Assembly: GCA_944321155.1 (NCBI GenBank)
Contig: CALUKG010000012.1
Location: 1-33,151 of the forward strand
Direction of reading: 5' to 3'
DNA length: 33,151 nt
DNA from: an uncultured Bacteroidales bacterium
GTDB lineage: Bacteria; Bacteroidota; Bacteroidia; Bacteroidales; Paludibacteraceae
Under the pieces are notes generated by a model that saw nothing but the letters and a program-made list of their open reading frames with translations, had not been told where the DNA came from and searched no databases. Shown one piece after another: positions 15,067 through 30,302 of this stretch; position 1 is the stretch's first letter; every line of letters begins with the position of its first letter. The translations under genes were made by a program, and so were the position numbers.

Positions 15067-15125
15067 CTTGTATGAGGTGCTAATAGACTGCGCTATTTTG
15101 GGAATAAACTTCAGTTTGCTGCTCA

Positions 15126-15142
15126 CAAAAAAGTAGACACGG
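15126..15142 (+). repeat. Left terminal inverted repeat of the IS
   Basis: CAAAAAAGTAGACACGG. It matches the complement of 16722-16737 except for one extra A in the A-run. Confidence 0.8.
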
Positions 15143-15167
15143 GAAGGTAGAAAAAGATTGAAAGTTG

Positions 15168-15175
15168 TACCTTTG
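15168..15175 (+). promoter_or_regulatory. -7 promoter box for the IS transposase
   Basis: TACCTTTG is an exact TAnnTTTG match just inside the left end. It would start a transcript near 15182 with a leader of about 105 nt containing the two alternative hairpins before orfA. No TTTG -33 box is seen. Confidence 0.55.
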
Positions 15176-15185
15176 GGAATTGATT

Positions 15186-15278
15186 GGAAGTTGCCTCAGT
15201 AAGGAGGGGCGAAGCCCCGAGTGGAGGAGGCAATTTCCGGCGGCCCGAAGCCAGCCAGTCAGAACTACCGGAAAGGAG
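15186..15278 (+). promoter_or_regulatory. Transposase mRNA leader with two mutually exclusive hairpins
   Basis: Hairpin A pairs GGAAGTTGCCTC (15186-15197) with GAGGCAATTTCC (15227-15238), one G-U, and encloses a smaller GC hairpin, GGGGC-GAA-GCCCC (15206-15218). Hairpin B pairs TTTCCGG (15234-15240) with CCGGAAA (15268-15274). Hairpin B covers the start of the AAAGGAG ribosome site (15272-15278) of orfA. A and B share bases 15234-15238, so they cannot form together. This looks like translational control of transposase; the function is inference. Confidence 0.55.
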
Positions 15279-15286
15279 AAACTTTT

Positions 15287-15631
15287 ATGGCACATTTAAA
15301 TCCTCTTGAAAAAGAGTTTCTGATTCGCCAGTTCAAATCGAATGGTCGGATCAAGTTGAGCGACTTCTGTACACAAAACAATGTGTCAGATGCCGCATTC
15401 CGCAAATGGATTAAACAGTATGAAGAAGGTGGTCTGGAGGGCCTGGCCCGTGCAGATGCTGAACTTAAGGATGTGTTTCCTGAAGGCATCAACCGCACGG
15501 AAGAAGCATATAAACGGGAAATTCTCAGACTTCGAATAGAGAATGAGCGGCTAAAAAAAAGTTATGCCGTTCAGATGAACGAAGCTGGGGAACAGGAGTA
15601 TGTTCGTTTAAAGGAGAAGAGTTCCAAATAG
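15287..15631 (+). CDS. IS3-family transposase OrfA
   Basis: A 114-residue protein. The start at ATG 15287 is chosen because AAAGGAG sits 8 bp before it; the open frame upstream to a GTG at 15221 covers the structured leader and is not likely translated. Residues 5-55 form a helix-turn-helix (EFLIRQFKSNGRIKLSDFCT, VSDAAFRKWIKQYEEGG), and residues 75-105 form a heptad-rich helix typical of OrfA dimerisation (YKREILRLRIENERLKKSY). It binds the element ends and joins OrfB by frameshifting to make the active transposase. It appears intact, so it could still repress or bind ends even though orfB is broken. Confidence 0.85.
   Translation: MAHLNPLEKEFLIRQFKSNGRIKLSDFCTQNNVSDAAFRKWIKQYEEGGLEGLARADAELKDVFPEGINRTEEAYKREILRLRIENERLKKSYAVQMNEAGEQEYVRLKEKSSK
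15553..15561 (+). other. Probable -1 ribosomal frameshift site (A-run) in orfA
   Basis: Eight A followed by G, read in frame as CTA AAA AAA AGT. A slip of -1 here enters the orfB frame, which opens just upstream after a TGA at 15544-15546 and runs on through the DDE domain. This fits the A-tract slippery sites of many IS3 elements. Confidence 0.6.
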
Positions 15632-16636
15632 TATCGGTGCTGTCCCGTGATTATGCTGTCAAGGACATCTGTGAGATGATGGGCGTGAGCCGTTCCGGCT
15701 ACTACAAATGGAAGAATCATCAGCCCTCAAAGCGCGACATCAACCGTGAAGAGATGATAGAGTTGGTTCGTGGCATACACGAAAAGCATCGCACGCATGG
15801 ATATCGTTAGACAGCAGCATATATCAGGATTAACGAGAAAATAGAAATAAGTGATAATTATGTTTATAAGTGCTTCCGATACCTTGGGATAAAGTCCGAG
15901 ACAAAGCATCAGGTTCATTACAGACCTCGCAAGGTAAGGGACAGGTATCCGAATCTGATATATTCCACCTGGGAGACAGTTGACAGACCGCGACAGGTGA
16001 TAGTGTCAGATATGACAGCATTCAAAGTTTGGTATATGTATATAGAGGTTACCTTTTACTTTGATGTATTCACGAAAGAGATTCTGTCATACAGAATAGC
16101 AGAGAGAAGAGGTGCTAGGTGCTAGAGAGCAATATATTGAGGGATTGAACGATGTTATATCATTGCTTAAAGGAACTAAAGCTCCAGTGATATTACATAC
16201 AGACCAGGGCACTGTATATGCATCAATGGCTTATAATGAACTTATTAAAGACACGAACATAGTCCGTTCAATGTCAAGGGCAGGCAAACCCACTGACAAT
16301 CCCGTGAATGAGGCTCTGAACGGCTGGATAAAAGAAGAATTGATAATAGACTTTGGAATAGAACGGTGTAGGGAGAAGCGAGACTTTCAGGAAGTAATGA
16401 CAAAATATGTAACATTCTACAATGAGCAGCGTCCTTGTTTTGCCATCGGCTATGACACTCCGACCAACTATAGAAAACGCTATTACAAAGGAGAAATCAA
16501 ATGTAATGAGACATTTGAAAAAAGAGAACTGACAATCGAACCTAAGTTCGTGCAAAAAAGACGCACGGAAACGCCTTGTAAAGACGATTTCTCAGATGTG
16601 TCCACTTTTGAAAACGATAATGGAGAAAAATTATAG
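15553..16636 (+). pseudogene. IS3-family transposase OrfB, broken by a nonsense codon and a 7-bp duplication
   Basis: In the -1 frame relative to orfA the sequence reads EEFQIVSVLSRDYAVKDICE, then MMGVSRSGYYKWK, IHEKHRTHGYR, stop, TAAYIRIN. The TAG at 15808-15810 replaces the Trp (TGG) usual at this place. The frame continues through VIVSDMTAFKV (first Asp) to 16116. There GTGCTAG is tandemly repeated (16112-16118 and 16119-16125), which shifts the frame and gives a second stop. Removing one copy restores RGAREQYIEGLN and the rest, including VILHTDQGT (second Asp) and NPVNEALNGWIKEEL (Glu), ending at 16636. All three DDE residues therefore survive but on separate fragments. Confidence 0.88.
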
Positions 16637-16737
16637 AAAATGTCTACTTTTGTAAAAGCTAACAGGACAAAAATATCGCGATTGTCTACTTTGGAAAAAA
16701 TGTTTAACTAAAAAATTTTTTCCGTGTCTACTTTTTG
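16600..16737 (+). repeat. Degenerate 42-bp repeats in the IS right end
   Basis: GTC(C/T)ACTTT starts at 16600, 16642, 16684 and 16726, exactly 42 bp apart each time. The units also share an A-rich stretch after the core and a second A-rich stretch near their middle. The last core is part of the right inverted repeat, and the first overlaps the end of orfB. This looks like an array of transposase sites in helical phase (four turns). Confidence 0.75.
16722..16737 (-). repeat. Right terminal inverted repeat of the IS
   Basis: Its complement reads CAAAAAGTAGACACGG, matching the left end at 15126-15142 with one A fewer. The flank beyond it (CGTCTGGTACAG) does not match the left flank. Confidence 0.8.
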
Positions 16738-16765
16738 CGTCTGGTACAGTTGTTTTTTTGAAATC

Positions 16766-16882
16766 TTGGAAAAGCGGCAAAAATGAGTGCTTTTTCCTTG
16801 GAAAAGTGGCAAAAATCTTTGTTTTTTTTCTTGGAAAAGCGGCAAAAAATGATTATGTTTGCCCTGAAAAAGCGGCAAAAAT
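16766..16882 (+). repeat. Four phased repeats in front of the DUF4143 ATPase gene
   Basis: Near-identical copies of TTGGAAAAGCGGCAAAAAT at 16766-16784, 16798-16816 (one C to T), 16831-16850 (one extra A) and 16864-16882 (start changed to CTGAA). Spacing of the central G is 32, 33 and 33 bp, about three helical turns. Copies three and four flank the likely -7 box, so they may be operator sites. A fifth related copy lies at 19707-19722. Confidence 0.85.
16854..16861 (+). promoter_or_regulatory. -7 promoter box of the DUF4143 ATPase gene
   Basis: TATGTTTG matches TAnnTTTG, 47 bp before ATG 16909, and lies between phased repeat copies three and four. A protein bound to these repeats would block or guide polymerase. 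Confidence 0.55.
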
Positions 16883-16908: not shown

Positions 16909-18255
16909 ATGTTGAAACGAAAAATCGATGCTTATATACGTGATTTTTACAGAAATAGCCCTAATGTCCTGTTGATTACAGGCGCAAGACAGATAGGCAA
17001 AACCTATTCGATTAGGGAATTCGGAAAAACGTTTAAGAATTTCATTGAAATCAACTTCATTGAAAATCCGGATGCGGTAGGTTTGTTTAAAGGGGCAAGA
17101 AATAGTTCTGATTTATTGTTGAGACTCTCAGCTTTGGTAACAAAACCTTTGATAAAAGGTGAAACACTCATTTTCTTTGATGAGGTGCAGGTTTGTCCTG
17201 AAATTGTTACGGCTATTAAATTTCTCGTGGAAGATGCTTCTTATCGGTATATTTTAAGCGGTTCTTTGCTGGGTGTCGAATTAAAGGATCTTCGTTCAGA
17301 ACCCGTAGGATATATGGGGGTGAAGGACATGTACCCTATGGACTTTGAAGAATTTGTAACGGCAGTTGGTGTTAATAAACAATTGATTGATGCACTTCGT
17401 GATGCGTGGGAAAATGAACGGCAGGTTGATGATTTTGTTCATTCAAAGATGATGGAACTATTTCGCTTGTATCTTGTGGTTGGAGGAATGCCTGCTGCTG
17501 TAGTAAAATATTTGGAAACCAATAATCTTCAAGAGGTGATGGCTGTTCAGCAAGATATCATACGTTTATATAAACGCGATATATCACAGTATGACCGGGA
17601 CAATAAATTGAACATTGCAGAAATCTTCAATCTGATTCCTCCCGAACTGAATGCTAAAAATAAACGCTTTATTCTCAAACGTTTGAATGAACACGCAAAA
17701 TTCGACCGTTACCAGAATAGTTTTTTATGGTTAAAAAATGCAGGAGTAGCGCTTCCTGTTTATAATGTGGAAGAACCAAAAGTACCATTGTTGCTTTCAC
17801 GTTCAAGAAATTTGTTCAAGTTATTTCAAAGTGATATAGGTCTGCTGGCTGCACAATATGCTGATGGGATACAATTGCGTATTATAAATGGGGATAAGGC
17901 AATCAATTTTGGATCTGTTTACGAAAATGTTGTTGCACAAGAACTTACCGCACATGGTATAGACATATACTATTATAATAGCAAGAAACGCGGAGAACTT
18001 GATTTTATAATAGAATTGGATGGAAAAGCGTTGCCAATCGAAGTGAAATCAGGTAAAAATTATGAGACGCATCGTGCACTTTCCAATATTATGGATTGTA
18101 CTGACTATGAGTTGGAAAAAGCTATTATTCTGAACAATGACAACCTAAAAGTGGATGGGAAATATGTGTATGCACCAGTTTATATGGTTATGTTTATAGA
18201 AAAGAAAAATATTGCTCCCTCTTTCTATAAAGTGGATTTAAACGGGCTCCAATAA
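16909..18255 (+). CDS. AAA ATPase with DUF4143 nuclease-like C-terminal domain
   Basis: A 448-residue protein of the large AAA_14/DUF4143 family. The N-terminal ATPase has Walker A LLITGARQIGKTYS (residues about 20-33) and Walker B TLIFFDEVQ near 86-94. The C-terminal DUF4143 part ends in RGELDFIIELDGKALPIEVKSG, an E/D...ExK pattern like PD-(D/E)xK nucleases. The family is abundant and mobile in Bacteroidota; its biological role is not settled, with mobile-element or defence links proposed from context. It follows four phased repeats, and a relic of a second copy with the same kind of repeat lies about 1.5 kb past its stop. Its stop is 3 bp from the stop of the opposing metallophosphoesterase gene. 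Confidence 0.9.
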   Translation: MLKRKIDAYIRDFYRNSPNVLLITGARQIGKTYSIREFGKTFKNFIEINFIENPDAVGLFKGARNSSDLLLRLSALVTKPLIKGETLIFFDEVQVCPEIVTAIKFLVEDASYRYILSGSLLGVELKDLRSEPVGYMGVKDMYPMDFEEFVTAVGVNKQLIDALRDAWENERQVDDFVHSKMMELFRLYLVVGGMPAAVVKYLETNNLQEVMAVQQDIIRLYKRDISQYDRDNKLNIAEIFNLIPPELNAKNKRFILKRLNEHAKFDRYQNSFLWLKNAGVALPVYNVEEPKVPLLLSRSRNLFKLFQSDIGLLAAQYADGIQLRIINGDKAINFGSVYENVVAQELTAHGIDIYYYNSKKRGELDFIIELDGKALPIEVKSGKNYETHRALSNIMDCTDYELEKAIILNNDNLKVDGKYVYAPVYMVMFIEKKNIAPSFYKVDLNGLQ

Positions 18256-19706: not shown

Positions 19707-19722
19707 TTGGAAAGGTGGCAAA
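19707..19722 (+). repeat. Stray copy of the ATPase-gene upstream repeat
   Basis: TTGGAAAGGTGGCAAA matches the 16798-16816 copy of the phased repeats with one A to G change. It lies 24 bp before the relic start codon. Confidence 0.7.
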
Positions 19723-19746
19723 CTATAGAATTCGATTTTATTTCTT

Positions 19747-19807
19747 ATGTAGAAAAAATAGATACTTATTTATCTGATTTCTATGCTGATAGATTCAATA
19801 TGCTGTT
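19747..19807 (+). pseudogene. Relic of the 5' end of a DUF4143 ATPase gene
   Basis: The stretch around ATG 19747 aligns with the start of the intact gene at 16909. Shared features are TTTTATT(T/C)CTTATGT before the start, then codons equivalent to K-I-D-x-Y-x-x-D-F-Y and a match at ATGCTGTT against ATGTCCTGTT. The second codon has become TAG, and a small deletion around the AAACG of the intact gene shifts the frame. No trace of the rest of the gene was found. With the repeat at 19707 it marks a deleted or displaced second copy. Confidence 0.7.
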
Positions 19808-19834
19808 TTCTTTAAAATAGGTTAAATGCAAAAG

Positions 19835-20110: not shown

Positions 20111-21664
20111 ATGGCTATTCCTGTAAATATTGAAGATCTGCTTCATAAGCGTAAAATAGAATCTACTCGCATAGAATTTAAGGCGGGTTGGAATCCAGAC
20201 AAAATATATCGTACTATCTGTGCTTTTGCTAATGATTTTGATAACATTGGCGGAGGGTACATCGTAGTTGGTGTTGAAGAAGAAAGCACTGGTATTGCTA
20301 AACGGCCGGTGGTAGGTGTTCCCATGGAAGAACTTGATAAGATCCAACGTGACATGATTGGTTTCAATCATAAGATTGAACCGTTTTATTTGCCACGGAT
20401 CGACGTGCAAGAAGTGGATGAAAAAAATGTGCTACTTATTTGGGTACCGGCAGGAGTAAACCGTCCTTATAATGTGCGTGAACGGGTTACTGCAACTAAT
20501 CAATCACTATGTAAATGGTATGTACGTAATGGGACCAATACGATTGAGGCAAGAGGTGAAGTCTTGGATGAATTGCGTGAGATGGCAAATCGTATTCCAT
20601 TTGATGAAAGAGGTAATGAGAATATAGAGATGACTGATATTTCAAGAGCCTTGGTTCTAGATTACCTGCAAACTGTCAATAGCCGTCTGGTTGCTGATTT
20701 CGAAAAGTTATCTCTATCTGAGTTATTGTCGCAGATGGATCTGCTGGTAGGGCCCGTTGAACGTCAACTGGTCAAAAATGTGGCTGCCATGATGTTTTGT
20801 AAGAATCCTGCCCAATTTTTCCCGACGACACAGGTGGATATTGTTATTTTTCCTGAGGGCTGTATCAAGAATCCCAACAATATGATTGAGGTTCCAAAGA
20901 TTGTTGGCCCTGTGCCCGATATGATTAAACAAGCGTTGGATTATATCAAGACGAATGTTATCAAAAAACGCATTATCAAACAGAAAGATAAGGCTGAATC
21001 TATAACCTTCTTCAACTATCCTTACCAAGCAATTGAAGAGGCAGTAGTTAATGCACTGTATCATAGGGATTATCAAGAACGGGAACCGGTTGAGATTACG
21101 ATTGAGCCAGACAAGATTTCTATTCTTAGCTATGCAGGTCCGGACCGTTCCATCAGTATTGATGCTATCCAAAAGGCTGAGCGCCTGAAGTCACGCCGCT
21201 ACCGTAATCGTCGTTTGGGCGATTATCTCAAAGAACTTCAGTTATCCGAAGGTAGAGGAACTGGTATTCCAACCATACAAGACGAGTTAAGAAGAAATGG
21301 CTCTGGTCCTGCTGTAATTGAGACTAATGAAGAAAGGAGTTACTTTTTGATAGAAATTCCTTGTAGAGAAGGATTTGAAGATGAACCATTAAATAGCATG
21401 ATAAATGAGCCATTAAATGATAAGATAAATGATAAGATAAATGATAAGATAAAAAGTGTACTGCTAAAGATTTCAGAACTTGGAATAGCAAAAAGAAAAG
21501 ACTTGCATGATGCAATAAAAATATCAATGCCCACTATTGATAGAATCCTTAAGCAGCTTATTTCAGAAGATCTTAATTTGATTGAGTATCAAGGATCTCG
21601 TAAGACAGGCGGTTATATATTGACCGAAAAAGGTAAATCCTTTGTAGAATCAATGAATGATTAA
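20111..21664 (+). CDS. AlbA_2 (Schlafen-type) ATP-binding regulator with winged helix
   Basis: A 517-residue protein. The N-terminal AlbA_2/Schlafen-AlbA domain (about 15-150) starts with ESTRIEFKAGWNPDKIYRTI and has ANDFDNIGGGYIVVGVEE. A GHKL-like domain (about 305-410) has YPYQAIEEAVVNALYHRDY and LSEGRGTGIPTIQDELRRNG, the HATPase_c_4 type. A C-terminal winged helix (about 450-510) reads RKDLHDAIKISMPTIDRILKQL with a C-terminal GGYILTEKG wing. The linker between them contains NDKI repeats. Such proteins are often found inside type I restriction loci and are usually labelled ATP-binding or transcriptional regulators; the molecular role is not settled. The stop overlaps the first possible start of hsdM1 by 8 nt. 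Confidence 0.88.
   Translation: MAIPVNIEDLLHKRKIESTRIEFKAGWNPDKIYRTICAFANDFDNIGGGYIVVGVEEESTGIAKRPVVGVPMEELDKIQRDMIGFNHKIEPFYLPRIDVQEVDEKNVLLIWVPAGVNRPYNVRERVTATNQSLCKWYVRNGTNTIEARGEVLDELREMANRIPFDERGNENIEMTDISRALVLDYLQTVNSRLVADFEKLSLSELLSQMDLLVGPVERQLVKNVAAMMFCKNPAQFFPTTQVDIVIFPEGCIKNPNNMIEVPKIVGPVPDMIKQALDYIKTNVIKKRIIKQKDKAESITFFNYPYQAIEEAVVNALYHRDYQEREPVEITIEPDKISILSYAGPDRSISIDAIQKAERLKSRRYRNRRLGDYLKELQLSEGRGTGIPTIQDELRRNGSGPAVIETNEERSYFLIEIPCREGFEDEPLNSMINEPLNDKINDKINDKIKSVLLKISELGIAKRKDLHDAIKISMPTIDRILKQLISEDLNLIEYQGSRKTGGYILTEKGKSFVESMND
21383..21454 (+). repeat. 24-bp and 12-bp tandem repeats in the AlbA_2 gene linker
   Basis: Two 24-bp units (21383-21406 and 21407-21430) are followed by two more copies of the 12-bp second half (21431-21442, 21443-21454). 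The 12-bp unit is GATAAGATAAAT, with the last base changed in the third copy. They encode a repeated NDKI linker. Units are multiples of three, so slippage changes linker length, not frame. Confidence 0.85.
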
Positions 21665-23159
21665 AATGGCAAAGAAAACAATAAAAAAAGAACTTACAGG
21701 GGCGCAAGATTTATACAATTTTTTGTTTGAAGCCTGTAATATCATACGTGGTCCTGTAAGTCAGGACAATTTTAAAGACTATATAACACCATTGCTATAT
21801 TATAAGCGTATATCAGATGTTTATGATGAAGAAACTGAGGATGCTTTGACTGATAGCGATGGTGATGAGGAATATGCTTCGCTACCTGAACAGCATCGAT
21901 TTGTTATACCAGACGGCTGTCATTGGCAGGACGTACGCGAACGCAGCGAAAATCTTGGTGCTGCAATAGTTGGAGCTATGCGACAAATTGAGATTGCAAA
22001 TCCAGATACGCTATATGGCGTTTTGTCTATGTTCTCTGCTCAGAAATGGACAAATAAAGCAATTCTGAATGATGGTAAAATCAGAGATTTGATTGAGCAT
22101 CTTTCAAAACGTAAATTGGGTAACAAGAATTATCCGGCCGATCTTATGGGTGATGCTTATGAGATCCTTTTGAAGAAATTTGCTGATGACAGTAAGGCTC
22201 AGGCTGGAGAGTTTTATACTCCTCGTTCCGTTGTTTCGTTATTGGTTCGCATACTTGATCCACAACCAGGAGAAACGGTGTATGATCCCGCGTGTGGTAG
22301 TGGTGGTATGTTGATTGAAGCCATTCGCTATATGCACGATGATACGCTTTGTTGCGGAAGCATTTTTGGACAGGAGAAAAACGTAGTCAATGCAGCAATT
22401 GCTAAAATGAATCTATTTCTTCATGGTGCATCTGATTTTAATGTGCTTCAAGGTGATACATTACGAGACCCGAAAATCTTGCAGAGTGGTAATATTGCCA
22501 AGTTCGATTGTGTAATAGCCAATCCTCCATTCTCTTTGGAAAACTGGGGGGCTACCGAATGGGCTTCAGATAAATACAAACGCAATCTTTGGGGAACACC
22601 TTCGGATAGTTGTGGCGACTTTGCATGGATTCAGCACATGATAGCATCAATGGCTCCGGCTCATGGTAGAATGGTGGTCGTAATGCCACAAGGTGTATTG
22701 TTCCGTGGCAATCAAGACGGGGAAATCAGAAAAAAAATGGTAGAAAGCGACTTGATAGAAGCTGTTGTAACTCTTGGAGACAAATTGTTCTATGGAACAG
22801 GATTATCACCATGTTTCTTGATTTTGCGAAGAATGAAACCAGCTGCACATTCTGGTCGGATACTTATGATTGATGGGACAAAGATTCTTACTCAGCGCCG
22901 TGCACAAAATGTATTAGAACCTGCAGATGTTGATAGACTATATGCATTGTATAAACAGTATGAAGATGTAGAAGACTTCTCCAAGGTAGTTACCCTGCAG
23001 GAGGTAAGGGATAAGGACTATAATTTGTCTCCCAATCGATTTGTGGAGTATCATAAGGAAGAAATTCGTCCATACTCAGAAGTACTGGCTGAGTTCAAGC
23101 AGGCGTATGAAGATGTAAAACGTCTTGAGCTTGAATTCTCTCAATTAATTAACGCATAA
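21657..23159 (+). CDS. hsdM: Type I restriction-modification methyltransferase subunit, first copy (HsdM1)
   Basis: A 500-residue N6-adenine methyltransferase. The N-terminal HsdM_N helical domain (about 15-170) has YYKRISDVYDEE and WTNKAILNDGKI. The catalytic domain has AdoMet motif I DPACGSGGM (210-218) and catalytic motif IV NPPF (289-292), with the family phrase GEFYTPRSVVSLLV just before motif I. It methylates adenine in the target chosen by HsdS and forms part of the restriction complex. The start may be ATG 21657 (8-nt overlap with the preceding stop, as at hsdS1 and hsdS2) or ATG 21666. It is followed after 4 bp by a second, diverged hsdM, which is unusual. Assignment to HsdM is firm. 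Confidence 0.93.
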   Translation: MIKMAKKTIKKELTGAQDLYNFLFEACNIIRGPVSQDNFKDYITPLLYYKRISDVYDEETEDALTDSDGDEEYASLPEQHRFVIPDGCHWQDVRERSENLGAAIVGAMRQIEIANPDTLYGVLSMFSAQKWTNKAILNDGKIRDLIEHLSKRKLGNKNYPADLMGDAYEILLKKFADDSKAQAGEFYTPRSVVSLLVRILDPQPGETVYDPACGSGGMLIEAIRYMHDDTLCCGSIFGQEKNVVNAAIAKMNLFLHGASDFNVLQGDTLRDPKILQSGNIAKFDCVIANPPFSLENWGATEWASDKYKRNLWGTPSDSCGDFAWIQHMIASMAPAHGRMVVVMPQGVLFRGNQDGEIRKKMVESDLIEAVVTLGDKLFYGTGLSPCFLILRRMKPAAHSGRILMIDGTKILTQRRAQNVLEPADVDRLYALYKQYEDVEDFSKVVTLQEVRDKDYNLSPNRFVEYHKEEIRPYSEVLAEFKQAYEDVKRLELEFSQLINA

Positions 23160-23163
23160 TAAT

Positions 23164-24699
23164 ATGGCAGAAAACAATATAAAGACTTACAGAAATCCCG
23201 ATGACCCGATTACGCTTGAAGAGTTGAAAAGCTTTCTTTGGGCTGCAGCTACCCATTTGCGTGGTCAGATTGATGCAGCAGGTTATAAAGAGTATATATT
23301 TCCGTTGTTATTCTTCAAGCGCATTTCTGATGTGTACGATGAACAATTTGATGGATTCCTCCATGAAGGCGGTGTGGAATATGCGGGTAAACAGGCTGAA
23401 GATTTGCCTATCCGCATTCCTGATGGAGCTCATTGGCGCGATGTGCGACAGGTTACAGAGAATGTCGGTCAGCGACTGGTAGAAGCTTTTATTGCCATCG
23501 AGCAGGCTAATCCCGCCAAAGAAATGGATGGCAGAAAGATTGGTGGTTTGGAAGGTATATTTGGTCCTAAAGACGGTTGGACGAATAAGGCCAAGATGCC
23601 CGACAGTATTATCACTTCTTTGATAGAAGATTTTTCTAAATATACGCTCTCGTTGAAAGCATGCCCTGCTGATGAAATGGGACAGGCTTACGAATATCTG
23701 GTTGGAAAGTTTGCTGACGATGCAGGAAATACAGCCCAAGAGTTTTATACCAATCGGACAGTAGTTCAGTTGATGGCTGAGATTCTTCAACCGCAACCGA
23801 ATGAGAGTATTTATGATCCGACTTGTGGTTCTGGTGGTATGTTGGTGAAATGCTTGGACTATTTACGCAATAAAGGTGAGGAATGGCAAGGAGTACAGGT
23901 GTTTGGTCAGGAGGTCAATGGCTTGACATCTTCTATTGCACGTATGAATCTTTATCTTAATGGTGTGGAAGATTTTTCTATTGCATGTGCCGATACCTTG
24001 GAGAATCCAGCATTTTTAGATGGCAGTTGCTTACGTAAATTTGATATAGTTCTTGCAAATCCACCATATTCAATTAAAGAGTGGAATCGTGAAAAGTTTA
24101 TGAATGATAAGTGGGGACGCAATTTCTTGGGTACACCACCACAAGGTCGTGCCGACTATGCATTTTTTCAACATATCCTTGCCTCAATGAATGATCAAAA
24201 TGGTAGGTGTGCAATTCTTTTCCCTCATGGAGTATTATTTCGTGATGAAGAGTTTGAATTGCGTAAAAAGTTGGTAGAGATGGATATTGTCGATTGTGTA
24301 ATTGGACTTGGACCCAACCTGTTCTTTAATGCATCTATGGAAGCCTGTATAATTGTTTGCAAGAAAAATAAACCTTTATCGCATAAAAAGAAGGTTTTAT
24401 TTATTGATGCTAAAGAAGAAGTAACGAGAAAGAATGCAGAAAGTTATTTAGAAGAGAACCACATTTTAAGGATTTTAGATGGTTATAGAGACTATTGTCA
24501 AATTGACTATTTTGCAGAAGTCATTAGCAATGAGGATATACTAAATAATAAAAGTTTACTCAGTATACAAAGTTATGTAAAGCAAAAGTGTACTAATGAA
24601 ATTTATATATTAGATGAGTCAATAGCAGATTTAGATAAAAGTTCGAAGTCTATGCATATTGAATTTAATAATCTTTTAAGGATGATGACAAATGAATAG
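23164..24699 (+). CDS. hsdM: Type I restriction-modification methyltransferase subunit, second copy (HsdM2)
   Basis: A 511-residue paralogue of HsdM1 with its own complete motifs: WTNKAKMPDSIITSLIEDFS, QEFYTNRTVVQLMAEIL, motif I DPTCGSGGM (218-226) and motif IV NPPY (299-302). Both copies therefore look catalytically competent. Identity between the two is moderate by eye and spread along the whole length, so this is an old divergence, not a recent tandem duplication. From about 24390 onward codon use becomes visibly more AT-rich, continuing into both hsdS genes, as if the 3' end of this gene was exchanged together with the specificity genes. It overlaps hsdS1 by 8 nt. It may pair with a different specificity protein than HsdM1 or form a mixed M1-M2 dimer. 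Confidence 0.93.
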   Translation: MAENNIKTYRNPDDPITLEELKSFLWAAATHLRGQIDAAGYKEYIFPLLFFKRISDVYDEQFDGFLHEGGVEYAGKQAEDLPIRIPDGAHWRDVRQVTENVGQRLVEAFIAIEQANPAKEMDGRKIGGLEGIFGPKDGWTNKAKMPDSIITSLIEDFSKYTLSLKACPADEMGQAYEYLVGKFADDAGNTAQEFYTNRTVVQLMAEILQPQPNESIYDPTCGSGGMLVKCLDYLRNKGEEWQGVQVFGQEVNGLTSSIARMNLYLNGVEDFSIACADTLENPAFLDGSCLRKFDIVLANPPYSIKEWNREKFMNDKWGRNFLGTPPQGRADYAFFQHILASMNDQNGRCAILFPHGVLFRDEEFELRKKLVEMDIVDCVIGLGPNLFFNASMEACIIVCKKNKPLSHKKKVLFIDAKEEVTRKNAESYLEENHILRILDGYRDYCQIDYFAEVISNEDILNNKSLLSIQSYVKQKCTNEIYILDESIADLDKSSKSMHIEFNNLLRMMTNE

Positions 24700-25246
24700 G
24701 GTTAAATTTGGCGATATAGTAAAAGATGTAAAAGTTAATGTTGATAGAATGAATAATCCTTATGAGTACTATGTTGCTGGAGATCATATGGATTCAGAAG
24801 ATTTAACTATACATAGAAAAGGTCGGTTTGCTACTGACGATGTAGGGCCTGCATTTGTCCGTATATTTAAACCAGGGCAGATACTATACGGGTCTCGAAG
24901 AACATATTTAAAGAAAGTCGCAGTTGCTGATTTTTCAGGAATATGTGCTAATACAACATTTGTTCTTGAATCAAAAGACAATTCTATTTTTGATCAGAGA
25001 TTATTACCCTTTATAATGTCATCTGACTCATTTACTTCATGGTCTATTTCAAAATCAAAGGGATCTACAAATCCGTATGTGTTATTCTCAGATTTAGCTG
25101 ATTATGAGTTTGACTTACCATCATTAGAGGAACAAAAAGTTCTTGCTGATAAATTATGGGCAGCCTATCGTCTGAAAGAAGCTTATAAGAAACTCCTTGC
25201 TGCAACTGATGAAATGGTGAAATTCGCAATTTATCGAGATGTTTAA
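24692..25246 (+). CDS. hsdS: Half-size specificity protein, one TRD (HsdS1), probably split from hsdS2 by a frameshift
   Basis: A 184-residue protein with one target recognition domain (about 1-145) and the start of a conserved spacer helix (SLEEQKVLADKLWAAYRLKEA, then LLAATDEMVK). The TRD has the pattern YEYYVAGDHMDSEDL, GQILYGSRRTYLKKVA, FSGICANTTFVLES and NPYVLFSDLADYEFDLPSLEEQ seen in type I specificity subunits. Full-length HsdS is normally about 350-450 residues with two TRDs. The last eight residues, KFAIYRDV, come from bases that in the other frame encode KSQFIEM, the conserved phrase in the middle of HsdS2. One extra T at 25223-25224 explains this. So it is either a true half-subunit or the front part of a broken three-TRD gene. 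Confidence 0.85.
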   Translation: MNRVKFGDIVKDVKVNVDRMNNPYEYYVAGDHMDSEDLTIHRKGRFATDDVGPAFVRIFKPGQILYGSRRTYLKKVAVADFSGICANTTFVLESKDNSIFDQRLLPFIMSSDSFTSWSISKSKGSTNPYVLFSDLADYEFDLPSLEEQKVLADKLWAAYRLKEAYKKLLAATDEMVKFAIYRDV

Positions 25247-25772
25247 GAATATACCTTCTGTTAAAATAGCTGATTGCTGTATAACGGTATCTGGTGGTAC
25301 TCCTAATACAAAGAAAATTGAGTATTATGATGGAGGAGATATACCATGGTTGTCTAGTGGTGAAATTAATCAAGGGTATATTTTTTCTACTGATAAATAT
25401 ATAACGCAATTAGGCTTAGAAAACTCATCTGCAAAATGGGTTCCTGCGAATAGCGTAGTCATTGCAATGTACGGTGCAACAGCAGGTAAAGTGGGGTTTA
25501 TAAAAATTCCACTTACAACCAATCAGGCAGTTTGTACATTATTGCCTAATGATGGCTTTGAACCTCTATACTTATATTATGCTACATTGTCAAAAACATC
25601 ATGGATGATATCACAATGTCGTGGCGCTGCACAGCCAAACATATCACAAAGTATTATTCGTGGTATGGAGATACCTATGGCAACAATAGATGAGCAAAAT
25701 CGATTTTGTAAATATCTAACACAGGCCGATAAATCAAAATTTGGCGACTTCAAATCGCAATTTATCGAGATG
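25224..25772 (+). repeat. 18-bp direct repeats flanking the first TRD of hsdS2
   Basis: TCGCAATTTATCGAGATG occurs at 25224-25241 (end of hsdS1) and 25755-25772 (middle of hsdS2), 531 bp apart, the length of one TRD module. The second copy is preceded by AAA, the first by AAAT; the extra T changes the reading frame. Confidence 0.9.
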
Positions 25773-26333
25773 ACCACAAGGTCTGAATTAAACAAGAAAT
25801 CCATTGGAGAGATAGCTGAGGTGAGAACAGGTTCAACACCTTCTCGAAGTAATCCTGAATATTGGAATGGAACACATTACTGGGTGTCTGCACAAGATAT
25901 GGGTAATAAATATATATACGATACTTTAGAGAAAATTACAGATACAGGATATGCAACTTGCAAAGTTGTTCCTGCAGGAAGCATTCTGTATGTTTGTAGG
26001 GGGAGTATTGGTGTAATGTCAATTAATACAATGGATTGTGCTACGAATCAATCTATCTGTACTGCAACATGTAAGACAGGATATAATACTGAATATTTGT
26101 ACTATGCTCTTAAAGTTGCAGAGAAAGCAATAAAAAAACAGGGTATTGGGACGTCATTCAAGTCATTAAATCAATCTGCCTTTGCATCAATAGAGATTTT
26201 GTTCCCGGCAATTGAAATCCAAGATAAATTTGCTACTATTGCTAAACAGGCCGATAAATCAAAATCTTATGTTCGGATTGCATTAAAAAATTTAGAATCC
26301 ATGTTAGGATATTGTATAAGGCAAGTAGCCTAA
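25239..26333 (+). CDS. hsdS: Type I specificity subunit with two TRDs (HsdS2)
   Basis: A 364-residue HsdS. TRD1 (about 5-155) contains SGGTPNTKKIEYYDGGDIPWL, AMYGATAGKVGFI and AAQPNISQSIIRGMEIP; a central conserved spacer QADKSK..KSQFIEM follows (about 162-178); TRD2 (about 188-335) contains RTGSTPSRSNPEYWNGTHYWV, YVCRGSIGVMS and FKSLNQSAFASIEIL; a distal spacer starts QADKSKSYVRIALKNLE. Each TRD reads half of the bipartite DNA target, and the spacers bind HsdM. The start overlaps the hsdS1 stop by 8 nt, but without one extra T upstream the reading frame would run straight through from hsdS1. AT-rich like hsdS1. Followed after 34 bp by hsdR. Confidence 0.92.
   Translation: MFKNIPSVKIADCCITVSGGTPNTKKIEYYDGGDIPWLSSGEINQGYIFSTDKYITQLGLENSSAKWVPANSVVIAMYGATAGKVGFIKIPLTTNQAVCTLLPNDGFEPLYLYYATLSKTSWMISQCRGAAQPNISQSIIRGMEIPMATIDEQNRFCKYLTQADKSKFGDFKSQFIEMTTRSELNKKSIGEIAEVRTGSTPSRSNPEYWNGTHYWVSAQDMGNKYIYDTLEKITDTGYATCKVVPAGSILYVCRGSIGVMSINTMDCATNQSICTATCKTGYNTEYLYYALKVAEKAIKKQGIGTSFKSLNQSAFASIEILFPAIEIQDKFATIAKQADKSKSYVRIALKNLESMLGYCIRQVA
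25721..26265 (+). repeat. 20-bp direct repeats flanking the second TRD of hsdS2
   Basis: ACAGGCCGATAAATCAAAAT occurs at 25721-25740 and 26246-26265, 525 bp apart. Both encode QADKSK in the central and distal conserved spacers. Identical repeats around a TRD can support exchange or loss of that TRD by recombination. Confidence 0.9.
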
Positions 26334-26367
26334 TCAAATAGATATAAACGAAAAATATTATATAGTT

Positions 26368-29298
26368 ATGTTTAACGAAGATAATACAGTGGAGCAAATG
26401 CTCATAAATGCAGCTACTCACAGTGGCTGGCAATATGTAAAGCCTAGTGATGTACCACGAAACACTGATTCGGTTCTGGTTGAATCTTGGTTGCAAGAGG
26501 CGTTGATCAGACTTAATCCTATTACGCTGCAGCAGGCCGAACAGGTGATCTATAAACTTCGTGCTGCTATTACCTGTGGTGGGAGTTTCGATGAATTGGT
26601 GACAGCCAATGACCGTTTCCGGGCATTATTATTTACTGAGAATACAGAACCATTTGGAAAAGATGGTGAATATATCCCTATTCGTTTCTTTAGTGATGAT
26701 TCTACTGAAGACTATTGTGTGGTTACCAATCAGTGGGAATATCCAAGACCGTCTGTTGACGGAGGTAAACGATTGGATTTGGTTTATCTTATCAATGGTA
26801 TTCCTGTTTGCATCGGAGAAGCGAAATCACCAGTAAGGCCTCAAGTTACATGGGCAGATGGGGCTACAGATATGCTACATTATGAAAAGAGTATTCCTGA
26901 GATGTTTGTTCCTAATGTATTGACTTTTGCTACGGAAGGTAAAGAACTTCAATATGCAGGAATCTGTACTCCTGTAGATAAATGGGGACCTTGGTTTAAG
27001 GATGAGTCGCGCCAGCATGGAACGATTGAGTCTGTAAAAAGTAATGTGATGAACTTAGTTGAGCCTAATCGATTGCTTGATATCTATCGTTATTATAGTG
27101 TATTTACAGGCACATCATCAGGCAAGAAAATAAAGATTGTATGCCGCTATCAACAATATTTAGGTGGTGAAGCAATAGTTCAACGAGTGCTTAAAACCTA
27201 TCGAGAGAAGCAAGGACCGAAAAAAGGTCTCATTTGGCATTTCCAGGGTTCGGGTAAATCTTGGTTGATGGTATTTGCTGCACAAAAGCTTCGTTTGCAA
27301 AACGAATTGCATGCTCCAACAGTTGTAATTGTGGATGACCGTATTGACTTGGAGGATCAGATTACTGGTGATTTTACTCGTGCAGAAATCCCCAATATTG
27401 AATCAGCCAAAACAAAAGAGGAATTGGTAGCATTCTTCAAACAAGACCAACGTAAAATTTTAATTACTACCATCTTTAAGTTTGGTGATGTGGAAAGTGT
27501 GCTTAATGAGCGAGACAATATTATCTTGTTGGTTGATGAAGCTCATAGAACACAGGAAAAAGATTTGGGACAGAAGATGCGAAGCGCATTGCCTAATGCA
27601 TTTTTCTTTGGTCTTACAGGTACACCTATCAATAAGCGAGATAAAAATACTTTCCTTGCTTTTGGTGCAGATGAAGACATGGAGACAGGGGGTTATATAT
27701 CAAAATATACATTCCAGAATTCAGTGGAAGATGGTGCTACGCTGGAATTGAATTTCCAGACTGTTCCTGTGGAAATGCATCTTAATGAGGAGCAGTTACA
27801 AGAGGAATTTGATGAATTGACTGATCAGATATCAGAAGAAGAAAAGAATGAATTGGTTAAACGAACCTCTGTAGAAGCATTCTTCACGGCTGAAAAACGT
27901 ATTAATGATGTTGCCCGCTACATTGTTAACCATTTTAAGGCTTATGTAGAACCAAGTGGAATGAAAGCACAAGTGGTTGTGTATAATCGTGATTGTTGCG
28001 TAAAATACAAGAAAGCCATTGATGCTTTGTTAGGTACAGAAGATGCCACAACAATAGTGATGCATACGGCCGGAGACAAGGCGGATGATTATAAAGAGTA
28101 TCGTAGAGACAGAGATCAGGAAAAGAAGCTGCTTGATCAATTCCGGGATCCATTATCTCCAATAAAAATGGTTATTGTAACATCTAAACTTCTTACTGGT
28201 TTTGATGCTCCTATACTTCAATGTATGTATCTTGACAAGCCTATGAGAGATCATACGCTTTTACAGGCTATTTGTCGTACGAACCGAAAATACACTGTCG
28301 ATAAAAAGTGCGGATTAATCGTGGATTTTGTAGGTGTATTCGATAATGTGGCAAGGAGTCTTGCATTCGATGAAGAGACAGTTAAAGCCGTTGTAAAGAA
28401 TATCGATGAAGTTAAAGCTTTAATACCTGATTTCCTACAAGAATGTCTTGATTTCTTCCCTGGAGTTGACCGTACGATTGGTGGTTGGGAAGGTCTTCAA
28501 GCCGCTCAGCAGTGCTTGCTGGATGATAAGGCTAAAACCGATTTTGCACGTCATTTTGCCCGATTGTCTAAGACTTGGGAAACTGTAAGCCCAGATACCA
28601 TGCTTGCTCCATATCAGCCAGATTATACTTGGCTTGCACAAGTGTATCAGAGTGTTCGTCCTGTCGGGACTAGCGGTTCACTTATTTGGACATTATTAGG
28701 TGCCAAAACGATTGAAATAATTCATCGTAATATAGATACAATTGATATAGGGACACCACTTGAAGATCTGGTTGTTGATGGTGATGTCATCAATACGGTA
28801 TTGGAACAAGCAAAGGATAATCCTAAAAAGATCCTTGAAGTTGAGAAGATGTTACGCTTGAGATTAGGTGAACACCGAGGTGATCCAAAATATAAGGCTT
28901 TTGCAGAAAAGCTGGATGAACTTCGCCGCCACATGGAGGAAAATCTTATTACAAGTATTGACTTTCTTCGCAGCTTGTTGACTCTTGCCAAAGAGGTACT
29001 TGAAGAGGAAAAGAATTCCAATCAGCCACTTGACAAACGTGAGCAAGCAAAAGCTGCTCTTACAGAATTGTTTGAATCAATAAAGACAGAAAATACTCCT
29101 ATCATTGTGGAGCGCGTTGTTGCTGATATTGACGAAAATGTGGTGGCTATTGTGCGTAAGTTCAAGGATGCTTTTAAAAGCATCACTGCTCAGCGAGAGA
29201 TAAAAAAGAAGCTACGTTCAATTCTATGGGTAAATTATCAAATCAAAGACCAAGAAGTCTTCGATAAGGCTTATCAGTATATTGAAATGTATTACTAA
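26368..29298 (+). CDS. hsdR: Type I restriction endonuclease subunit HsdR
   Basis: A 976-residue restriction subunit. The N-terminal nuclease domain has a PD-(D/E)xK site: Asp137 in KRLDLVYL and Glu151-x-Lys153 in CIGEAKSP. The translocase motor follows: Walker A HFQGSGKS (291-298), VVIVDDRIDL, motif II VDEAHR (389-394), motif III GLTGTP (415-420), and later SKLLTGFDAP and LLQAICRTNR (motifs V and VI). The C-terminal third is helical and contacts the methyltransferase. It translocates DNA with ATP and cuts unmethylated DNA away from the recognition site. Motifs all look intact. It is 34 bp after hsdS2 and 53 bp before hamA, in the same direction. Confidence 0.95.
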   Translation: MFNEDNTVEQMLINAATHSGWQYVKPSDVPRNTDSVLVESWLQEALIRLNPITLQQAEQVIYKLRAAITCGGSFDELVTANDRFRALLFTENTEPFGKDGEYIPIRFFSDDSTEDYCVVTNQWEYPRPSVDGGKRLDLVYLINGIPVCIGEAKSPVRPQVTWADGATDMLHYEKSIPEMFVPNVLTFATEGKELQYAGICTPVDKWGPWFKDESRQHGTIESVKSNVMNLVEPNRLLDIYRYYSVFTGTSSGKKIKIVCRYQQYLGGEAIVQRVLKTYREKQGPKKGLIWHFQGSGKSWLMVFAAQKLRLQNELHAPTVVIVDDRIDLEDQITGDFTRAEIPNIESAKTKEELVAFFKQDQRKILITTIFKFGDVESVLNERDNIILLVDEAHRTQEKDLGQKMRSALPNAFFFGLTGTPINKRDKNTFLAFGADEDMETGGYISKYTFQNSVEDGATLELNFQTVPVEMHLNEEQLQEEFDELTDQISEEEKNELVKRTSVEAFFTAEKRINDVARYIVNHFKAYVEPSGMKAQVVVYNRDCCVKYKKAIDALLGTEDATTIVMHTAGDKADDYKEYRRDRDQEKKLLDQFRDPLSPIKMVIVTSKLLTGFDAPILQCMYLDKPMRDHTLLQAICRTNRKYTVDKKCGLIVDFVGVFDNVARSLAFDEETVKAVVKNIDEVKALIPDFLQECLDFFPGVDRTIGGWEGLQAAQQCLLDDKAKTDFARHFARLSKTWETVSPDTMLAPYQPDYTWLAQVYQSVRPVGTSGSLIWTLLGAKTIEIIHRNIDTIDIGTPLEDLVVDGDVINTVLEQAKDNPKKILEVEKMLRLRLGEHRGDPKYKAFAEKLDELRRHMEENLITSIDFLRSLLTLAKEVLEEEKNSNQPLDKREQAKAALTELFESIKTENTPIIVERVVADIDENVVAIVRKFKDAFKSITAQREIKKKLRSILWVNYQIKDQEVFDKAYQYIEMYY

Positions 29299-29351: not shown

Positions 29352-30302
29352 ATGGATAGAATAGAAAATGCTATAAACAATCTACTAATTAAGCCCAATG
29401 AGGCACTAAAGTCACGTATTGAAGAGGTACGATATTGTATTGATATACCTGACACTAACTCGAAAGGGTATTGTTATTGTCTTAAAGTTGATGCAAATGG
29501 TAAATTAAGGCTTCAAGATTTAATAGATTATCTTGATACTCGAATAGTCGATTATGCTATTCCCAAAAAAGAAATCGATGAAGCGAAAAATGATTTAAAC
29601 AATACTGGTTCTACAAGAAAAATCATTCAGCTAAGAAAGAAAGCTAAAAATCTTTTTACTGATTTGAATAAAACTGGTGAAGGTGGTGAAATCTTATTGT
29701 ATATTCTTACACAGGATATTTTGAAGCTCCCGCAACTAATAAGTAAAATGTCTTTAAAAACATCTCCCAAAATGCATTATCATGGAGCAGATGGCATCCA
29801 TTTCCAATATAATAGCATAACTGGAAATTTAGAACTTTATTGGGCTGAGGCTAAAATGTATCAGGACCTAAATGCAGCTATGGTAAGTTGCTTTGATAGC
29901 TTAAAAGGTTTTCTACTTGATCCAATAGGTTATAAATCCACACAAGAAAGAGATATTGATTTGATTACATCGAATATACACCAAAATATAAATAATGAGG
30001 CTATTGAGGATATACTTGTAGAGTATTTTGACAAAGATAAAGAACAGTCAAATCATTTGGTTTATAAGGGTGTATGTTTTATTGGATTCGATTATGATAA
30101 ATATCCAAGTAATACAGATATTACAAAAACTACAGCAGACATAAAAAATGCTATATTAGCAGAATATGATAAGTGGTACAATAGTGTAGGACAAAAGATA
30201 AAAGAACATTTGAATCTTGATAAAAAAGAGATCCATGTGTTTCTGATGCCTTTCCCTTCTGTAGAAGAATTTAGACGATATTATCTCCAAACAATAAAAT
30301 GA
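29352..30302 (+). CDS. hamA: Hachiman defence protein HamA (DUF1837 nuclease)
   Basis: A 316-residue DUF1837 protein. The conserved block runs from TGEGGEILLYILTQDILKLP (108-127) and LISKMSLKTSPKMHYHGADG to YWAEAKMY (163-170). Glu113, Asp147 and Glu166-x-Lys168 form a PD-(D/E)xK-like nuclease site, as described for HamA. In characterised Hachiman systems HamA is bound and held inactive by HamB and released to degrade DNA when the helicase senses damaged or phage DNA. The start is ATG 29352; an ATG at 29342 gives only five codons before a stop that overlaps the real start. The stop overlaps hamB by 4 nt (ATGA), which signals coupled translation and equal output. More AT-rich than hsdR. Identity is well supported by motifs plus the adjacent helicase. 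Confidence 0.92.
   Translation: MDRIENAINNLLIKPNEALKSRIEEVRYCIDIPDTNSKGYCYCLKVDANGKLRLQDLIDYLDTRIVDYAIPKKEIDEAKNDLNNTGSTRKIIQLRKKAKNLFTDLNKTGEGGEILLYILTQDILKLPQLISKMSLKTSPKMHYHGADGIHFQYNSITGNLELYWAEAKMYQDLNAAMVSCFDSLKGFLLDPIGYKSTQERDIDLITSNIHQNINNEAIEDILVEYFDKDKEQSNHLVYKGVCFIGFDYDKYPSNTDITKTTADIKNAILAEYDKWYNSVGQKIKEHLNLDKKEIHVFLMPFPSVEEFRRYYLQTIK

Follow-up and report, generated by a model that had tools for sequence, protein, structure and literature searches.

Helically phased direct repeats upstream of DUF4143 (PDC-S01) ATPase genes: a widespread, probably self-recognised operator

Introduction

Phased direct repeats that lie over the promoter of the gene for their own binder, or for its partner NTPase, are known from plasmid Rep iterons and from parC and tubC. 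A comparable layout occurs in RptR islands, in which three direct repeats span the boxes of a defence promoter and a repressor acts on its own promoter; RptR is a small homodimer, its 9-bp repeats are arranged around a 6-bp palindrome and one conserved sequence serves all of them (PMC12255303). Defence genes are also the setting of PDC-S01, an ATPase fused to a PD-(D/E)XK-superfamily domain, which was detected by guilt-by-embedding and ranks as the fourth most common defence system across prokaryotes, with 29,494 bacterial and 9,986 archaeal copies; most such candidates still await validation (PMC12988326). In the literature, its anti-phage role is a candidate one.

Here we describe an array of phased direct repeats ahead of a PDC-S01 gene in an uncultured Bacteroidales bacterium (contig CALUKG010000012.1, positions 1 to 33,151, hereafter the window) and follow such arrays across the gene family. 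Searches of the open literature on DUF4143, on PDC-S01 and on direct repeats with AAA ATPases and defence islands found no such arrays.

Results

A four-copy array overlaps the predicted promoter of a PDC-S01 gene

The window contains four direct copies of the CTTGGAAAARYGGCAAAAA repeat at 16765–16881, all on the + strand, with starts at 16765, 16797, 16830 and 16863 and start-to-start distances of 32, 33 and 33 bp. Copies 1 (16765–16783) and 3 (16830–16848) both read CTTGGAAAAGCGGCAAAAA, while copy 2 (16797–16815) reads CTTGGAAAAGTGGCAAAAA and copy 4 (16863–16881) reads CCTGAAAAAGCGGCAAAAA and covers the transcription start, which the −7 box predicts near 16866–16868. An 18-mer allowing up to three mismatches has four matches in the window, compared with 0.06 in shuffled sequences (0 of 100 shuffles reach four), and the Tandem Repeats Finder (TRF) score of 145 is the highest in the window. 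The original observation of four phased 19-bp repeats at 32–33 bp is borne out. Used as a paired pattern, the repeat has no other match, either elsewhere in the window's genome or among 100 relatives chosen irrespective of the gene. We rejected a CRISPR array, as the copies diverge, the 13–14-bp spacers hold promoter boxes and no cas gene is found among the window ORFs examined. A phage-derived array was also rejected, since viral contigs gave no match to the paired repeat. One unannotated 'Bacteriophage sp.' scaffold from faeces (MT837929) has both array and gene; its label is unverified and the DNA may come from a bacterium.

A perfect Bacteroides −7 box, TATGTTTG (TAnnTTTG), lies in the last spacer at 16854–16861 (+ strand), at the same offset as in relatives and 23 bp past the start of the TTG of copy 3 (16831–16833, + strand), which this fixed offset marks as the predicted −33 element. 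The repeats had originally been described as surrounding the −7 box; the box does fall between copies 3 and 4, but the −33 element is part of copy 3. A perfect TAnnTTTG follows the start of a repeat TTG by 22–23 bp in 17 of 21 loci of the window type, usually with one more copy downstream; in the Bacillota type the repeat itself serves as the −35 box, in the order TTGAAA N17 TATAAT with an offset of 23. A sigma-70 promoter scan returned no match at the array, as expected for Bacteroidota. Sites repeated at whole turns and overlapping a promoter have the geometry of an operator, for which the gene product is the putative binder; deduced from this geometry alone, the sign of the effect would be repression by occlusion.

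The nearest gene begins at 16909 and encodes a 448-aa protein (16909–18255, + strand) that passes the Pfam cut-offs for AAA_14 (PF13173; 1.7e-25, 89.9 bits, cut-off 27) and DUF4143 (PF13635; 1.3e-29, 103.4 bits, cut-off 28.1) and matches the PADLOC model for PDC-S01 over its full length (PDLC04792; 1.5e-201, 667.9 bits). The gene, originally described as that of a DUF4143 ATPase, already has a name as the defence candidate PDC-S01. The protein comprises AAA_14 (residues 1–152), a lid (157–228), a winged helix (about 231–310) and a PD-(D/E)XK-like domain (334–423). Residues G25-A-R-Q-x-G-K31, D91-E92, E363, D365, E378 and K380 are invariant or nearly so in 51 relatives, so that both the Walker motifs and the PD-(D/E)XK-like residues that characterize the family are conserved. 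An AlphaFold2 model built with these relatives (pLDDT 84.6) has the same order of ATPase core, lid, winged helix and PD-(D/E)XK-like domain. The structures that match it best are those of the archaeal MNS-type ATPases 2qen (Z 16.4, rmsd 4.7 over 267 residues) and 2fna; CED-4 and plant NLR proteins come next, and MuB and TnsC also appear among the hits. In placing a winged helix after the ATPase core, the predicted fold resembles those of STAND/NB-ARC proteins. A sequence search of the PDB with the ATPase found no relative, and NCBIfam and PHROGs gave just weak matches, to the nuclease-like part (YraN-type).

Further along the window, a stretch at 19707–19808 (+ strand) is likely what remains, in decayed form, of the 5′ end of a second PDC-S01 gene; one repeat copy, the leader and the start region are recognizable as three weak collinear matches. 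This remnant adjoins restriction–modification and Hachiman genes, namely a type I restriction–modification cluster with two methyltransferase-like and two specificity-like ORFs (21657–29298) and Hachiman HamA/HamB (29352–32812).

Arrays are widespread among DUF4143 genes

To survey the family irrespective of repeat sequence, we used a motif-blind array score based on three 12-mers at any period from 15 to 60, evaluated against dinucleotide shuffles. Arrays were detected upstream of 60 of 131 DUF4143 genes versus 3 of 136 flanking genes (Fisher 6e-19), and in 35 of 79 genes of a second set made up of the paralogues of nine genomes; the sampled loci exclude archaeal members. Binned by similarity to the window's subfamily, the rates were 51/57 for that subfamily itself and 24/47, 5/58 and 15/48 for the others, indicating that nearly every gene of some clades has an array, whereas in other clades arrays are absent or escape detection. 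About half of the genes tested lack a detectable three-copy array, which is consequently not required for the protein fold as such. No array was detectable at any of the 14 DUF4143 genes sampled from a cyanobacterial and a chlamydial metagenome-assembled genome, which may represent a lineage-specific expansion working without arrays or with arrays below the reach of the test. These genomes, of about 2.2–2.3 Mb, have 43 and 36 DUF4143 matches, respectively. PF09820 ATPases from the same genomes as the DUF4143 genes passed the test in 3 of 29 cases, two of them in simple repetitive sequence and one probably at an orphan array.

A protein search of species genomes yielded 63 loci. Almost all close relatives (57–82% identical) have two to six copies of the window's repeat immediately upstream, and TTGAAAAGT-type repeats at 32–33 bp precede the gene in more distant relatives from Clostridia, Bacilli, Erysipelotrichia and Parasutterella; arrays were also seen by eye for members on plasmids of Vibrio, Acinetobacter and Glaesserella. 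The paired window-type repeat matched 34 times in 20 genomes, compared with 0 matches for the reversed control. An ATPase gene directly follows 30 of these matches; of the other four, two fall at a contig end, one precedes a decayed ATPase (L113) and the last (L112) is an orphan. The repeat thus keeps to DUF4143 ATPase genes, and its spacing is conserved; a repeat found mostly away from such genes, or unconserved spacing, had been named as grounds for refutation. The proposed tie between phased repeats and this ATPase family gains support well beyond what had been claimed, with arrays preceding nearly all close relatives. The exact repeat differs between paralogues and does not serve the whole family. 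At four loci (L112, L352, L078 and L059), the upstream regions hold orphan or second arrays that either lack an ATPase of their own nearby or precede the array of another PDC-S01 gene; such arrays are possible footprints of lost genes.

Array spacing falls on whole helical turns

The two sets together gave 95 array detections, with a few loci counted twice (84 after removal of duplicates and foreign arrays). Periods were 32–34 in 76 detections, 22–23 in 18 and 40 in one, with none between 24 and 31. Hence 94 of 95 detections correspond to two or three helical turns, in two classes one turn apart. This is the pattern expected from the original suggestion that phasing places a protein on one face of the DNA, where it would bind. 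The spacing class tracks protein phylogeny and not host genome: nearest relatives below 50% identity share the class 80 times out of 84 (permutation mean 57.7, maximum 72), and the class changes three times on the protein tree, compared with a mean of 15 and a minimum of 11 after shuffling.

Each paralogue tends to have a private repeat

The window's genome has seven DUF4143 matches. In addition to the window array, three paralogues have clear arrays of other repeats (GGATAATGTGAA at L118, AGGGAAATC..GGAAA at L121 and ATTTATCCGTATTA at L122), two (L117 and L120) have shorter repeat series seen by eye and one, which falls under the Pfam cut-off (L123), has no repeat series. In one Muribaculaceae genome, 9 of 11 sampled paralogues have arrays, with nine different repeats. 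Across 56 arrays, repeat similarity correlates with protein identity (Spearman 0.75; 0.66 below 45% identity; permutation p 0.002); in a wider set of 84 the correlation is 0.50 overall and weak (0.15) below 35% protein identity. Repeat similarity exceeds the 99% null in 10% of same-genome pairs, as against 58% of pairs from different genomes whose proteins share at least 40% identity. At equal protein identity, two repeats from one genome resemble each other no more than those of other pairs do. Like the spacing, then, the repeat sequence tracks the phylogeny of the protein and not the host genome.

No protein other than the ATPase is common to all array loci, making it the natural candidate for the reader. 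The original prediction that the repeats might bind the ATPase itself gains from the finding of an own repeat for each paralogue, which points to the ATPase as the probable binder. Within the protein, similarity of the winged-helix segment predicts repeat similarity best after correction for the remaining parts (partial r 0.26 versus 0.13–0.15), but this segment ranks first of the four domains in only 204 of 300 bootstraps, and the association is only suggestive.

An IS3-family element favours the upstream edge of arrays

A decayed IS3-family element occupies 15117–16748 (+ strand), its right end lying 16 bp before copy 1 and outside the array. It is flanked by a possible 3-bp target duplication, GTT (15114–15116 and 16749–16751), seen in the window only. 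The right end carries four copies of an 11-bp repeat, TGTCTACTTTT, about every 42 bp at 16599–16735; these are likely binding sites of the element's own transposase. An IS3-family element or right end lies 1–35 bp upstream of the array at eight loci (the window, L027, L035, L039/L218, L261, L362, L370 and L373) from Bacteroidota and a Clostridia plasmid, and at all eight the right end faces the array. The right-end sequence has six perfect matches in 997 kb of sampled loci, all just upstream of PDC-S01 arrays and in one orientation; a stricter pattern is absent from 197 other Bacteroidales genomes, and the end has no match in viral contigs. Searching about 270 genomes with the transposase protein gave five copies: a PDC-S01 array directly follows four of them, and the fifth (L372) precedes a UDP-glucose dehydrogenase-like gene. 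Several of the early cases were noticed before counting began. The adjoining arrays, one of which is on the Clostridia plasmid, represent both spacing classes and no fewer than five different repeat sequences; being unrelated in sequence, they suggest that the element recognises architecture or a bound protein rather than the repeat sequence.

In a sister species the flanking genes are collinear (88% and 94% identical) and 150 bp replaces the IS, array and ATPase, making this a variable locus. We nevertheless rejected the array as an IS end, because the IS stops at 16748 and the repeats begin at 16765, relatives have arrays without an IS and there is no inverted partner on the 3′ side. Indeed, a repeat copy on the 3′ side of the ATPase gene was found in none of 17 loci. 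The earlier idea that the repeats act as a mobility site finds no support in its original form, the repeats themselves occurring upstream only. What the loci do show is the preference of an IS3-family element for the spot just upstream of arrays.

Discussion

Taken together, the window array is one case of a widespread arrangement, most likely a variant of the cooperative autoregulatory operator in which, judging from sequence comparisons, the regulated gene's own product would recognise the repeats. We consider it probable that the arrays are head-to-tail binding sites through which the encoded ATPase controls its own promoter. Each PDC-S01 ATPase would bind the repeats ahead of its own gene, most likely via the winged helix, with protomers following each other head to tail along a single DNA face at one per three turns (per two in another clade). 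Occupancy would block RNA polymerase and keep expression low, since the repeats hold the −33/−35 element and a further copy usually lies over the start. Release could follow from a changed ATP state, loss of the protein or interference by an invader. The array, its whole-turn spacing, its overlap with promoter elements, its paralogue-specific sequence and its co-divergence with the protein are observed; the ATPase as binder, repression as outcome, the winged helix as reader and the nuclease-like domain as effector are inferred.

Other readings account for parts of the data. The ATPase–nuclease could be parked inactive on its own array as a sensor or address, so that displacement or a change in DNA state during infection would lead to attack on nucleic acid as well as derepression. 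Speaking for this are the union of an ATPase core, a winged helix and a PD-(D/E)XK-like site (E363, D365, E378, K380) in one protein, the position of this defence candidate in a stretch with type I restriction–modification and Hachiman genes, and arrays of up to six copies, which exceed the need of simple occlusion. Ordinary autoregulation, however, fully accounts for the geometry, and we regard a sensor as rather unlikely. In an extended form of the idea, to which we give an equally small chance, the array would act as an immune switch: disturbance of the inactive ATPase–nuclease would bring derepression and nuclease action, and the IS3-family transposase would land on the bound assembly in a MuB/TnsC/IstB-like manner. 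Private array sequences would then insulate the paralogues of one cell from each other, and a bound ATPase assembly as landing site would explain insertion beside arrays of unrelated sequence.

Recognition by a host DNA-binding protein other than the ATPase, such as one that silences foreign genes, would suit repeats that are A-rich and phased and thus able to bend DNA. Yet paralogues within a genome have different repeats, which go with the ATPase from phylum to phylum, and comparable arrays are missing from nearly all flanking genes and PF09820 ATPases of the same genomes; nine different arrays in one genome, with no other shared protein, mean that a host factor cannot be the sole reader, and we hold this explanation to be improbable. 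Nor do we favour the array as a transposon end, integration target or cassette site that moves the ATPase gene. The lack of both gene and array at the site in the sister species, the eight IS3-family right ends beside arrays and the existence of orphan arrays and remnants would all agree with mobility, but the repeats are direct, fused to promoter elements and present upstream only, with no 3′ partner, the IS ends before the array starts and cassette recombination does not need conserved whole-turn spacing, which together leave this reading very improbable. Least probable of all, to the point of being nearly negligible, is that the repeats act in RNA, as a leader structure or binding sites in the transcript, or are CRISPR-like. 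Short, regularly spaced repeats ahead of a defence-candidate gene might invite such a view; against it, Rfam reports no family above threshold, the short spacers carry promoter boxes, viral contigs lack the paired repeat and, with the promoter in the last spacer, most copies are not transcribed from it.

The interest of the arrays rests on their breadth, their privacy to each paralogue and their tie to an abundant, uncharacterised defence candidate. On the autoregulatory reading, they predict a DNA ligand for every protein as well as a promoter, and sets such as the nine different arrays of one genome amount to natural swap experiments; they also explain how many paralogues in one cell could stay under separate control. 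They can also be used for calling start sites, finding decayed copies and pairing orphan arrays with lost genes.

Compared with known systems, the window ATPase shares the combination of ATPase core and winged helix with MNS-clade STAND ATPases (2qen, 2fna) and NB-ARC proteins (CED-4), but differs in sequence (identity at most 16%) and in its extra PD-(D/E)XK-like domain. For STAND/NB-ARC proteins, we know of no DNA array. Iteron and centromere arrays are likewise phased direct repeats overlapping a promoter, whereas PDC-S01 arrays belong to single-gene loci on chromosomes as well as plasmids, where no partner for replication or partition was seen, and a single genome can have many private arrays. 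The window is not a member of the RptR regulon, which is marked by a TAGCTA palindrome and an adjacent rptR, since its repeat is CTTGGAAAARYGGCAAAAA and the neighbours of the array are the IS and the ATPase. PDC-S01 arrays depart from the RptR scheme in having asymmetric repeats (in the window's clade), a spacing of two or three turns, paralogue-specific sequences and no separate regulator gene; with direct repeats over the boxes of a defence promoter in common, RptR is the nearest described case.
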